64,000 nt of DNA from Hydrogenophaga sp. (GTDB lineage: Bacteria; Pseudomonadota; Gammaproteobacteria; Burkholderiales; Burkholderiaceae_C), in NCBI GenBank assembly GCA_030682835.1, contig JAUXNG010000072.1, positions 1 through 64,000 of the forward strand, read 5' to 3'. How positions within the stretch are numbered: the stretch's first letter is position 1; each line of letters begins with the position of its first letter. The notes under the pieces are model-generated. The model was not told the DNA's origin. It was given only the letters and a program-made list of their open reading frames with translations, and searched no databases. The position numbers and the translations under genes were made by a program. Below, piece by piece: positions 6,749-20,788 of this stretch.

Positions 6749-7393
6749 ATGGGTCGCATTGTTCTCAAAAACGTCCGCCTGGCTTTCCCCGACATCTGGA
6801 AGCCCGGTGAGCCTATGCCCGGCTCCACCTCGGGTCCGAAGTACGGCGCTCAGCTCATTTTCGCGCCCGACAGCCCGGCCGCCCAGCTCTGCCAGCAGGA
6901 ACTGCTGCGCGCCGCCACCGAAAAGTGGGCAGGTCAGGCCAGCATGGTTCTGCAGGAACTCGGCAAGGACAAGAAATTCCTGCGCCGCGGCGACGGCAAC
7001 CTGGCCAAAGACGGCACGGTTCGCAACGGCTTCGGCGGCATGCTGTACGCAGCCGCCAAGAACAAGACCAAGCCGGCGATCATCGCCCGCAACTTCTTCA
7101 ACGGCCGCCCGGTGTTCCTGAATGAAGACGGCAGCGGCATGCAGGACAACGCCGTCATCCCCGGCCAGATGTTCAAGGTGCCCTACGGCGGCTGCACGGT
7201 CAACGCCGCCATCGACGTCTACGCCATGGACAAGGTCGGCCAGGGCAAGGGGGTATACGCGACCCTGATCAGCGTGCAGTTCGTCGAGGACGGCCAGGCA
7301 TTCAGCGGCGGCGCCGTTGACGCCAACGGCCTCGAAGACCTGGGCGACGAGCCCGGTGCCGCACCGGCCGCCGCAGCGTCCAACCTGTTCTAA
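6749..7393 (+). CDS. DUF2815 family, putative single-stranded DNA-binding protein
   Basis: MGRIVLKNVRLAFPDIWKP...GQMFKVPYGGCTVNAAIDVYAMD; directly downstream of DUF2800 as in many phages. Confidence 0.8.
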   Translation: MGRIVLKNVRLAFPDIWKPGEPMPGSTSGPKYGAQLIFAPDSPAAQLCQQELLRAATEKWAGQASMVLQELGKDKKFLRRGDGNLAKDGTVRNGFGGMLYAAAKNKTKPAIIARNFFNGRPVFLNEDGSGMQDNAVIPGQMFKVPYGGCTVNAAIDVYAMDKVGQGKGVYATLISVQFVEDGQAFSGGAVDANGLEDLGDEPGAAPAAAASNLF

Positions 7394-7403
7394 GCGAACA
7401 GCG

Positions 7404-7556
7404 GGTCTCGGCACTTCCAAGCTCGGACTGAACCACCGGGCAACAAGCCCTCGATGCCGCCCGCTGGCCGCCCGCCACGGATTTCACGCCAGCGGTAGCG
7501 GTCAACGGGTGCCGAGAGGCAACTGGGAAGCCCGAAATCGAGGGAACGGTTCACCG
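7404..7556 (+). ncRNA. Candidate structured RNA with pseudoknot topology (undescribed as far as I can tell)
   Basis: Perfect complementary pairs in an untranslated gap: TCTCGGCAC 7406-7414/GTGCCGAGA 7509-7517; CCCTCGAT 7448-7455/ATCGAGGG 7537-7544; CCGCTGGC 7461-7468/GCCAGCGG 7488-7495; TGAACC 7429-7434/GGTTCA 7548-7553; first and second helices cross. Confidence 0.5.
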
Positions 7557-7580
7557 ATCAACTCACATCAGCACATCACC

Positions 7581-7877
7581 ATGACCTACGTTCTGCAAGA
7601 CAACATCCCCGCCCCCGAGGCACGCCGCGCCGGTCGCCGGCCGTCAGGCATCAAGTACCCGTTCGCCGACATGAGCGTCGGCCACAGCTTCTTCGAGCCC
7701 TGCGAGGCCACGGCAGAGAAACCCCTGGCCGACGTGCAGACCGCCGCCATCGACCGCCTGCGCAGCGCCTGCGGCCGCTGGAAAAAGGCCACCGGCGCTG
7801 CCGGCGTGCAGTTCCGTGTCGACGTCTACACCGACGGCAGCGGCAACCACTTCGTCGGCTGCTGGCGCATCGCCTAA
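7581..7877 (+). CDS. Hypothetical phage protein
   Basis: MTYVLQDNIPAPEARRAGRRPSGIKYPFADMSVGHSFFEP... Confidence 0.65.
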   Translation: MTYVLQDNIPAPEARRAGRRPSGIKYPFADMSVGHSFFEPCEATAEKPLADVQTAAIDRLRSACGRWKKATGAAGVQFRVDVYTDGSGNHFVGCWRIA

Positions 7878-7911
7878 CCCGTGTCTCCCTGATCGCGTTG
7901 CCGCGATTTTC

Positions 7912-7935
7912 ACCCCGGCTTCGGCCGGGGCTTTT
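7912..7935 (+). terminator. Rho-independent terminator
   Basis: CCCCGGC-TTCG-GCCGGGG-C-TTTTT. Confidence 0.85.
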
Positions 7936-8007
7936 TGATCGAGGGCCTGTCCGCTGGGGTGTCCCGGCGGTGGCCAGCAGGCCCTCGTTCAAAGAGAAGA
8001 ACACCAG

Positions 8008-9990
8008 ATGAAACGCACCCTAGTCCTCGACATCGAGCTTTACAGCAACTACCTGCTTGTGATGTTCAAGAGCATCGACACGCGCCGCGTCATGGCCTTC
8101 GAGGCGTTCCCGAGCGGGACGTTTGCAGATCCGCAGGCGCTCGACGCCGGCAGAGTCTCAGACCCGCAGGCACTCGACGTCGCCGGCATCACGCGCATCC
8201 TGCGCGAGTTCCGCATCGTCACCTTCAACGGCCTGGACTTCGACATGCCGCTGCTGTGGATGGCGCTGAGTGGTCGCACCGTGTCCGAGGTGAAGGCAGC
8301 CGCGAACCACATCATCAAAGGCGGCCTGCGCGGCTGGCAGTTCGAGCAGCACTACCAGATCAAGGTGCCGAAGTGGGTTGACCACATCGACCTCAAGGAG
8401 AGCGTGCCCGGCGTGGCCATCAGCCTGAAGCTCTACGGCGGCAGGTTGCACAGCAAGCGCCTGCAGGATCTGCCCATCGAGCCGAACGCCGTCATCCTGC
8501 CCGAGCGGCGCGCCGGACTGCGCACGTACTGCGAAAACGACCTGGACACGACGATCGACCTGTGGCTCAAGGCCACGGACCCCAAGGGCGACATCATCGC
8601 CACCCGCGAGTTGATGAGCGCCGAGTTCGGCATCGACTTGCGCAGCAAGTCGGACGCGCAGATCGCCGAGGCCGCCATCAAGGCCAGCGTCGTCAAGGCC
8701 AAGGGCGAGCCCGTCTACCGCCAGGACGTGACGCCCGGCACCACGTATCGTTTCAAGCCCATGCCGTGGCTGCAGTTCAACGACCCCGTGCTGCGCGCCA
8801 AGTTCGAGCAGGTGCTGGCCGCCGAGTTCTACGTCAAGGCCGACGGCAAGGTGCAGATGCCGGCCTGTCTGGAAGGCGCCAGCGTGCAGTTGTCCACCGG
8901 CGGCAGCGTCTACCGCATGGGCGTCGGAGGCCTGCACAGCAGCGAGTCAGCGGCGGCACACGTTGCTACGCCCGACGTGCTGCTGCGCGACACCGACGTC
9001 GTGTCCTATTACCCATCGCTGATCCTGCTGTGTGGCCTGTTCCCGCGCAACATGGGCGCACACTTCCAGCGCGTCTACCGCGACTTTTTTGACCGCCGAA
9101 TCCACGCGAAAAAGGTCGGCCACAAATCGACGGCACAGACCCTCAAGATTGTGCTGAACGGCACCTTCGGCAAGCTCGGCAGCCGGTACTCGGTGCTCTA
9201 TAGCCCCGACCTGATGCTGCAGGTCACCGTCACCGGCCAGCTCGCGCTGCTCATGCTCATCGAACGGCTGGAGGCCGCCGGCATTGCCGTCGTCAGCGCC
9301 AACACCGACGGCATCGTGCAGAAGTGCCCGGCCCACCTGGACGACGTGCGCCGCCAGATCATTGCCCGCTGGGAACGCGAGACCTGCCTGGAGACCGAGG
9401 ACGTCGGCTACCGCGGCCTGTTCAGCCGCGACGTCAACAACTACATCGCGCTCAAAGAGGGTGGCGGCGTCAAGACCAAGGGCGTGTTCACGCCGCCCGG
9501 CGTCATGAAGAACCCCGACTTCGACATCATCGCCGAGGCCGTCTGCGCCTGGCTGGACCGCGGCACGCCCATCGGCGAGACCGTCATCGGCTGCCAGGAC
9601 ATCCGCCGGTTCGTCTGCGTGCAGCGCGTCACCGGCGGCGCGCAGATGCCCACCGGCACGCAGGTGCTCGACAACTGGGAATGGAACAAGACCGCCGGCG
9701 CGTGGGAGCAATGGCACGGCCAGCGGCTGCTGAAGGAAAAACGCAAGGGCCGCCCCAAGCCTGCCGTCGTCACCGCCGACGCCGTGTACCTGGGCGAAGT
9801 CGTGCGCTGGTATCGCAGCACGCGCAGCACCCAGCACATCGAGAAAGTGGGCAACGGCAACAAGGTGCCCAGCAGCGACAACGCCATGCCCTGCATGGAA
9901 CTGCCCGACACCATGCCGGCCGACGTCGATTACGACTGGTACATCGGCGAAGCCTGCCGCGCGCTGCGGCTGATTGGAGCCGTGACGTGA
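8008..9990 (+). CDS. Phage DNA polymerase, B-family-like with 3'-5' exonuclease
   Basis: Exo motifs DIE, FNGLDFD, YCENDLD; pol motif A DVVSYYPSLI, motif B LKIVLNGTFGKLGS, motif C-like SANTDGI. Confidence 0.8.
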   Translation: MKRTLVLDIELYSNYLLVMFKSIDTRRVMAFEAFPSGTFADPQALDAGRVSDPQALDVAGITRILREFRIVTFNGLDFDMPLLWMALSGRTVSEVKAAANHIIKGGLRGWQFEQHYQIKVPKWVDHIDLKESVPGVAISLKLYGGRLHSKRLQDLPIEPNAVILPERRAGLRTYCENDLDTTIDLWLKATDPKGDIIATRELMSAEFGIDLRSKSDAQIAEAAIKASVVKAKGEPVYRQDVTPGTTYRFKPMPWLQFNDPVLRAKFEQVLAAEFYVKADGKVQMPACLEGASVQLSTGGSVYRMGVGGLHSSESAAAHVATPDVLLRDTDVVSYYPSLILLCGLFPRNMGAHFQRVYRDFFDRRIHAKKVGHKSTAQTLKIVLNGTFGKLGSRYSVLYSPDLMLQVTVTGQLALLMLIERLEAAGIAVVSANTDGIVQKCPAHLDDVRRQIIARWERETCLETEDVGYRGLFSRDVNNYIALKEGGGVKTKGVFTPPGVMKNPDFDIIAEAVCAWLDRGTPIGETVIGCQDIRRFVCVQRVTGGAQMPTGTQVLDNWEWNKTAGAWEQWHGQRLLKEKRKGRPKPAVVTADAVYLGEVVRWYRSTRSTQHIEKVGNGNKVPSSDNAMPCMELPDTMPADVDYDWYIGEACRALRLIGAVT

Positions 9991-19000: not shown

Positions 19001-20170
19001 TCACGCCAGCAGGCGCGCCGACAGATCCTCGGCGCGGAAACTCGCGTACCGCTTGCTCATTTCGCTGCCGGGCTCCCAGCCCATGATGCGGTCGATCTCC
19101 GTCTCGCGGAACACCCACTGGCCGCGGCTGTCGCGCAACTCGAACCACTGGCACGTCGCCTCGTGGCGCATGTCGTGCTCCGTCAACTCAGCGTGGCCGG
19201 CGTACTCGAACAGCTTGGCGAACCTGGCCGACAGCCGCCCCGTCGCCTTCTTCAGCGACCGCTCGTCGCGGTCCCCGTCCCAGTAGCTGAACAGCAGGCC
19301 GTCAGCCGGGCGCGTCGGCAGGTAGGTGGACAGCAGCGCGGCCAGTGGCGGCCGGATCGGCACGTTGCGCCACTTCTCGTTGTCGTGCCACTGCTTGCTC
19401 GTCCTCACGCGCAACGTGCTCGACGGCAGCAGCACCTGCGCCGTGGTCAGCGTGTATGCTTCGCGCAGCCGCACGCCGGTGTAGTAGATCAGCCAGAACA
19501 GCATGCGGAACTCGGCGTCGTCGGGCGCCACCACCGGCCGCTGCCGATCGGGACGCTTCACGCCGTCCAGCGCCTGCACCACAGCGGCCAGGCAGTCACC
19601 GGCGAGCCGGTGGTCACGTGGCTTGTCGGTCTTGGCCTGTCCGCCGGCAGCCACCGCGGCAGCCTTGTCGGCGGCCGTGTACGTGGCGGCGCCCCGCGGC
19701 AGCAGCCGAAGCGGGTTGCCCAGGCTCACGTCGGGGTGGCTGCGCAGCCACCAGTCGAGGGCGCGCGACAGGCTGCCGATGCGCTTGCGCACCGTGCTCG
19801 GCGCCAGGTTGGCGTTGCGCTTCATGCCGACCACCCACGCCTCGGCCCAGGCATATGTCACCTGGTCGAGCCTGAGCCCGGCCAGCTCGACGCACAGCCG
19901 TTCCAGCACGTCGTAGTCCGTGCGCGCCGGCTGGCCCGTGCGTATCCACTGCCGCAGCACGGCGGCAACGGCCTCGCGCGGCGCTCCCTGCTGCGGTTCC
20001 GGCGCCAGCCCGGCGGGCACGATGCCGGCGTCCAGCAGCCGCTCGACCTGGTCACCGTATGTGCGGGCCTCGCCCTCGCTGGCGAACGTCAGGTAGACAC
20101 GTTTCGGCAGCAACTTGCTGCGAATCGTCAGTTCCCACTTGCCTGTGGGCGTCTGTCTTACGCTGGCCAT
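19001..20170 (-). CDS. Tyrosine recombinase / phage integrase
   Basis: MASVRQTPTGKWELTIRSK...; GVRLREAYTLTTAQV, HDMRHEATCQWFE, IDRIMGWEPGSEMSKRYASF. Confidence 0.9.
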   Translation of the reverse strand: MASVRQTPTGKWELTIRSKLLPKRVYLTFASEGEARTYGDQVERLLDAGIVPAGLAPEPQQGAPREAVAAVLRQWIRTGQPARTDYDVLERLCVELAGLRLDQVTYAWAEAWVVGMKRNANLAPSTVRKRIGSLSRALDWWLRSHPDVSLGNPLRLLPRGAATYTAADKAAAVAAGGQAKTDKPRDHRLAGDCLAAVVQALDGVKRPDRQRPVVAPDDAEFRMLFWLIYYTGVRLREAYTLTTAQVLLPSSTLRVRTSKQWHDNEKWRNVPIRPPLAALLSTYLPTRPADGLLFSYWDGDRDERSLKKATGRLSARFAKLFEYAGHAELTEHDMRHEATCQWFELRDSRGQWVFRETEIDRIMGWEPGSEMSKRYASFRAEDLSARLLA

Positions 20171-20373
20171 CTGAAGACAGGCCCTGCCGTCCAACCGTGA
20201 CCCCAGCCCTGTGGGGGTATTGTGAAGCCAACAGACACCTTCTCGCCCATACGACCCAACTGCTCCAAGACTGCGCGCTGATGCGGATAAAGCAGGTCGT
20301 AGAAAGACCGTCGCTTTTTGCGCAACAGCCCGTGCTTGTTGCGCCTTGCGTTCACCCTAGATATTGACGCCAT
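20158..20373 (-). CDS. Small basic hypothetical protein upstream of integrase
   Basis: MASISRVNARRNKHGLLRKKRRSFYDLLYPHQRAVLEQLGRMGEKVSVGF. Confidence 0.45.
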   Translation of the reverse strand: MASISRVNARRNKHGLLRKKRRSFYDLLYPHQRAVLEQLGRMGEKVSVGFTIPPQGWGHGWTAGPVFRWPA

Positions 20374-20503
20374 AAAACCTCCGTAGTTTGTGTCGTCATA
20401 TCGTACTCGATTAGACGGCATACATGGAAGTCTAGTGGCGGTTCAACCGCCAAAACGAGGCGGTTTGAGCCGGGCGCGAGTCGATTCGAGGGCTGGAAAG
20501 CAA

Positions 20504-20526
20504 GAAGCCCGGACTGGCCGGGCTTC
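20504..20526 (-). terminator. Hairpin terminator downstream of the tRNA pair
   Basis: GAAGCCCGG-actgg-CCGGGCTTC, T-rich (TTGCTTT) on the minus-strand 3' side. Confidence 0.55.
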
Positions 20527-20553
20527 GTAAGTGCTTGATTTACTTGACTTTTC

Positions 20554-20627
20554 TGGAGGCGCGACCCGGAGTCGAACCGGGCTAGACGGATTTGCAATCC
20601 GTTGCATAACCGATTTGCTATCGCGCC
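20554..20627 (-). tRNA. tRNA-Cys(GCA)
   Basis: Reverse complement GGCGCGATAGCAAATCGGTTATGCAACGGATTGCAAATCCGTCTAGCCCGGTTCGACTCCGGGTCGCGCC+TCCA. Confidence 0.92.
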
Positions 20628-20712
20628 GCATGCAACTGGTGCTGCCACCAATCGCCTCATCAACTTTCACCATCGAAGAAAAAGAGAAGCAGGGCTTCCC
20701 TTTTTCAAATAC

Positions 20713-20788
20713 TGGAGCGGGATAAGAGACTCGAACTCTCGACCTATACCTTGGCAAGGTATCGCTCTACCAACTGAGCTAATCCCGC
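20713..20788 (-). tRNA. tRNA-Gly(GCC)
   Basis: Reverse complement GCGGGATTAGCTCAGTTGGTAGAGCGATACCTTGCCAAGGTATAGGTCGAGAGTTCGAGTCTCTTATCCCGC+TCCA. Confidence 0.95.

Follow-up and report, generated by a model that had tools for sequence, protein, structure and literature searches.

The window, a 64,000-nt stretch of a Hydrogenophaga sp. contig, contains an early operon in which a DUF2800 exonuclease gene, a gene for a Gp2.5/Enc34-type ssDNA-binding and annealing protein (SSB), a gap, a DUF7303-like gene and a DNA polymerase gene follow each other in this order (Table 1). The gap comprises 187 nt between the SSB stop codon (7391-7393) and the ATG at 7581. The closest phage, Curvibacter phage PCA1, shares these genes (60% identity for the polymerase, 55% for the SSB and 51% for the DUF7303-like protein) but has only 8 nt at this place, its downstream gene beginning at the same Met 8 nt past the SSB stop. 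The element found in the gap is also missing from the IMG/VR contig L060. We conclude from PCA1 and L060 that it is an optional insert and not a decayed coding sequence. Furthermore, the length differences between its homologues are not multiples of three; the decay of a reading frame, which would have refuted the original prediction of a structured RNA, was thus not seen.

Other features of the locus were also noted. An intrinsic terminator (7913-7930, CCCCGGC-TTCG-GCCGGGG-CTTTTT) lies within 7878-8007, just 5' of the DNA polymerase gene, and is directly followed by a long hairpin able to pair with its T-run (TTTGATCGAGGGCC.../...GGCCCTCGTTCAAA). Comparable hairpins are present at the same place in PCA1 and L060, and in L037-L054 a terminator and a long hairpin lie immediately 5' of the RNA element. 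Elsewhere in the window, inspection by eye revealed a minus-strand ORF (19001-20194, within 19001-20788) that looks like a tyrosine integrase and is adjoined by two tRNA genes, at 20557-20627 and 20716-20788. As judged by eye, 19001-20788 is probably the prophage attachment end.

Four helices (A to D) had been predicted in the gap, with helix A crossing B and D in a pseudoknot. All four are perfect and lie where they were placed, and the crossing holds. Comparison of homologues corrected and extended this fold by adding helices E, F and G and a three-way junction. The junction is closed by stem D+B and carries two hairpins, E/C and F. Of the 5' strand, the first part pairs with the C loop (helix G, CGGG/CCCG) and the part after it with the hairpin F loop (helix A), A' being enclosed by helix F. 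Since G and A are contiguous on a single leader strand, the leader acts as a clamp on both hairpin loops of the junction.

Table 1. Genes and RNA parts at the locus (window coordinates; primes mark 3' strands)
Feature	Position	Strand	Evidence or remark
Gp2.5/Enc34-type ssDNA-binding and annealing protein gene (upstream)	6749..7393	+	PF10991 1.9e-18, phrog_112 1.7e-30
Whole element	7402..7553	+	full-length covariance model R1 match, 105 bits (window in training set); 0 Rfam matches
Helix G (CGGG)	7402..7405	+	pairs with C loop 7471-7474 (CCCG); motif at same place in most members; compensatory variants
Helix A (TCTCGGCAC), pseudoknot	7406..7414	+	pairs with 7509-7517
Helix D (TGAACC)	7429..7434	+	pairs with 7548-7553
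Conserved internal loop ACCGGGCAACAAG (family ACNNGGCAACNAG)	7435..7447	+	faces AAC 7545-7547
Helix B (CCCTCGAT)	7448..7455	+	pairs with 7537-7544
Helix E (GCCGC), base of hairpin C	7456..7460	+	pairs with 7498-7502
Helix C (CCGCTGGC)	7461..7468	+	pairs with 7488-7495
C loop (CCCG)	7471..7474	+	helix G partner
Helix C' (GCCAGCGG)	7488..7495	+	
Helix E'	7498..7502	+	
Helix F (CGGG)	7506..7509	+	7506-7508(9)/(7531)7532-7534; 7509 common to A'
Helix A' (GTGCCGAGA)	7509..7517	+	within loop of hairpin F
Helix F' (CCCG)	7531..7534	+	
Helix B' (ATCGAGGG)	7537..7544	+	
Helix D' (GGTTCA)	7548..7553	+	
DUF7303-like gene, 98 aa (downstream)	7581..7877	+	51% identity to PCA1 counterpart
DNA polymerase gene, same early operon	8008..9990	+	phrog_1252 2e-171

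Shuffling confirmed that chance is an improbable source of these pairings. The 2000 dinucleotide shuffles made from 7394-7580 contained on average 0.22 perfect helices of >=8 bp, as compared to 3 observed, and 0.15% of the shuffles reached 3. A crossing pair was present in 0.25%, and perfect 8-bp crossing helices in the order A-B-C in 0/2000. Nested-only folding of the gap gave a weak z of -1.88, and the case was therefore settled by homologues, not by energy. The pseudoknot strands contribute about -16 and -5 kcal/mol, before loop costs, on top of a nested fold of -40 to -48 kcal/mol, while the nested minimum is -64 kcal/mol; energy alone is thus neutral. As a guide to structure, the nested minimum-energy fold was uninformative and was set aside, as it misses helix A.

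In total, 14 distinct copies of the element from about ten lineages were collected; they come from contigs of environmental phages, from five further genomes within the same bacterial order and from ACPWH, a cultured phage. BLASTN with the element gave nothing useful against phages and plasmids and only short chance matches in 148 related genomes. A single-query SSB search of IMG/VR and GTDB found no relatives, but DNA polymerase and SSB alignments did work. Polymerase-based searches led to L037-L041 and L054, in which a gap after the SSB gene has the same architecture with different helix sequences. Searching with patterns made from the conserved unpaired stretches gave L063, which follows a portal-like gene, and the weaker L072, which has RecT-like and exonuclease-like genes nearby (neighbors of both assigned by eye from ORFs). 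Further pattern hits (L069-L071, L073-L085 and L086-L089) were rejected as chance, being coding-looking sequence or missing the rest of the element.

From seven copies, a covariance model (R1) was built using nested helices only. When genomes from the same family and order were searched blindly with it, five additional copies came up (152, 78, 73, 56 and 48 bits); across 369 genomes spread over the class, it matched only the window's own genome. Copies are thus rare, with one per genome in which there was a match. With the refined model R2, a further copy was detected in ACPWH, a cultured phage of Acidovorax citrulli (78 bits and, for the complete record, 2.7e-17; L102 3974-4129, which is MH727593.1 5260-5415). 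This copy occupies an annotated gap and ends 30 nt 5' of the DNA polymerase gene, and Acidovorax phage ACF1 (MZ547449.1) shares the gene layout and the gap. The whole records of PCA1, BPP-1, AchV4, DSL-LC05 and YB23 contained no match, and three other records only insignificant ones. A full-length R1 or R2 match, together with retention of the unmodelled helices A and G, was found for the window, L037-L040, L054, L063, L091-L095 and L102; L072 was weaker.

For comparison of the copies, a model-based alignment was used, since MAFFT alone misplaced helices C and F in both the window and L037. The covariation check proposed with the original prediction came out in its favor: the homologues keep all four helices via compensatory changes, which supports the reading that a structured RNA with a pseudoknot lies within the prophage replication operon. 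In the set of 13 distinct copies, pairing is kept in 92% of cells, and both-side changes occur in 19 of the 26 modelled pairs (57 such cells versus 15 in shuffles). The covariation score was 0.46, as compared to 0.13 in shuffles and 0.03-0.09 when partners were slid. The alignment behind these changes and scores was fitted to the modelled helices, and helix A, which is in no model, is therefore the fairer test. Indeed, pairing of a leader is far better with the F loop of its own copy than with the F loops of other members. With 7 lineage representatives, 2 of 5040 leader/F-loop pairings scored as well as the true one, which is itself included, and with 10 representatives, 0 of 100,000 arrangements did.

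Helix B is fully paired in 13/13 copies, and its sequence varies by lineage (CCCTCGAT, GCCGAGAT, TCTCGGAT, CCCGCGAT and GCCGGGAT); the ACPWH helix B has two central mismatches. Compensatory variants of helix G are GAGGG/CCCTC (L095), GTGGG/CCCAC (L102) and GGTGGC/GCCACC (L072). Furthermore, G-U pairs appear in B, A and C when these are read on the + strand; at the level of sequence, they point to an RNA of the operon's sense. That the pairings are chance complementarity or the remains of a coding sequence, as the GC richness and an open frame running through the element might have suggested, is already refuted by the homologues; the shuffles, the covariation, the blindly found copies and the absence of the gap in PCA1 all speak against it.

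The Rfam scan suggested at the outset was run, and the element matches no known family. With Rfam 15 (4227 models), no match at gathering score was obtained for the members tested, and in or around the element there were only weak ones far below gathering; over the window, the scan returned three tRNAs only and nothing credible in the gap region. A hint that the locus might correspond to a published motif near DUF2800/DUF2815 genes was not borne out, since there was no Rfam match, no such paper was found and several members lie beside other genes. The element is undescribed in the open literature searched (subscription papers and preprints were outside this scope). Like the RNA motifs from comparative screens (e.g., PMC2864571), it is a conserved structured RNA in phage intergenic regions, but it matches no Rfam 15 family. 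We conclude that 7402-7553 belongs to an undescribed family of RNAs that are conserved, contain a double pseudoknot and are encoded in sense orientation in phage early recombination/replication operons.

The topology raises the question of catalysis. In HDV-like ribozymes, as here, a 5' helix crosses a later helix with a hairpin in between (P1 x P2 with P3 between, corresponding to A x B/D with C). HDV-like ribozymes are known in phages, where theta ribozymes are tied to tRNA-based recoding (PMC10879173). A new self-cleaving ribozyme cutting the early mRNA, perhaps at the 5' boundary, would also suit the compact double pseudoknot with conserved unpaired bases, the coincidence of the element's 5' edge with its first helix, and the diverse genomic contexts. 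However, no Rfam ribozyme family matched at E<=1 to 10, the HDV covariance model included. The spacing is not that of HDV either: the A-D joiner is long, and instead of a tight P3-P1 junction, A' lies inside hairpin F, several bases from E', and C' and A' are not directly joined. The element also has the extra helices F and G. The crossing topology alone does not make it an HDV-like ribozyme, and we consider self-cleavage, which is itself conjectural, unlikely though conceivable.

The genomic context was compared across the family. In every lineage with clear neighbors, the element is in sense orientation to them. It follows Gp2.5-type SSB genes in the window, L037-L040, L054, L092 and L095, and elsewhere lies near RecT plus exonuclease (L094), Erf (L093) or SSB plus exonuclease (L091) genes. 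The ssDNA-annealing and exonuclease modules with which it clusters thus come from distinct families (Gp2.5 type, RecT, Erf and RecE-like). L063 follows a portal gene in a head-gene cluster, outside the recombination context. The position beside SSB, annealing and polymerase genes could indicate a phage replication origin or a primer-RNA element of the R-loop type. This is very improbable given the L063 location and the existence of PCA1-like phages that have the same replication genes without the element.

The element of L091 (also L091/L096) is nearly the same as that of L038-L054 (152 bits), yet the flanking genes are quite different, which suggests transfer as a discrete cassette. Such movement among unrelated phages, the sharp edges of the unit and its own downstream terminator in L093 and L063 could be expected of a trans-acting small RNA processed from the operon, e.g., a decoy, an antisense regulator or an anti-defence RNA. 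We regard this as quite unlikely, since no promoter pattern was found in 7200-8100, a conserved free seed region is absent and many copies sit tightly between genes.

The distance from the end of the element to the next start codon is about 16-40 nt in most members and thus fairly constant, although the next genes are unrelated. Upstream, the element starts only 6-10 nt past the stop codon in the window, L092, L093 and L094, and a 3'-UTR role fits these equally. Stop-codon readthrough, which the short distances had brought to mind, was rejected because other members are >=80 nt from the stop.

The best explanation, which we hold with slightly less than even confidence, is that this undescribed double-pseudoknot RNA family acts in cis on early mRNA; the cis role is inferred, and its function has not been shown. 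Within the polycistronic early mRNA, the folded element would set how strongly the downstream gene(s) are translated or how stable their transcript is, probably by binding, at the conserved internal loop (ACNNGGCAACNAG/AAC), a small ligand or a protein of the phage or the host. That the element is cis-regulatory rather than a self-cleaving ribozyme or a trans-acting RNA, the two main alternatives, is likewise an inference made without expression or reporter data. Against this reading, the fold contains no Shine-Dalgarno sequence, and a strand that could serve as a mutually exclusive switch was not seen. Also counting against it are the terminator-like hairpins between the element and that gene in L063, L093 and L094, and the location of L063 after a portal gene.

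The working principle may resemble that of T4, whose SSB represses its own synthesis through an mRNA pseudoknot (T4/RB69 gene 32 operator, PMC535899). Both are pseudoknotted phage mRNAs tied to an ssDNA-binding protein gene. However, the T4 SSB acts on its own mRNA, while the window element is 3' of the SSB gene and not in its 5' leader; it is also about 150 nt long, includes a three-way junction and is found next to RecT, Erf and portal genes as well. By this analogy, the gene 32 pseudoknot may serve as a precedent for the working principle only, and the element is no relative of it.

New pseudoknotted RNA families with covariation support are uncommon and have often turned out to be riboswitches, ribozymes or protein operators. 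It is possible, albeit doubtful, that the family represents a new catalytic or ligand-sensing RNA class in which the leader clamps both loops, a movable cassette of unrelated phages that controls or processes annealing/replication mRNA. Because the element is a small defined unit with a consensus, a natural negative control (PCA1) and a cultured carrier phage (ACPWH), self-cleavage, ligand or protein binding and a regulatory effect are directly testable. Its recurrence beside nonhomologous annealing proteins (Gp2.5, RecT and Erf) suggests that it is connected with recombination in phages or with the control of early genes.
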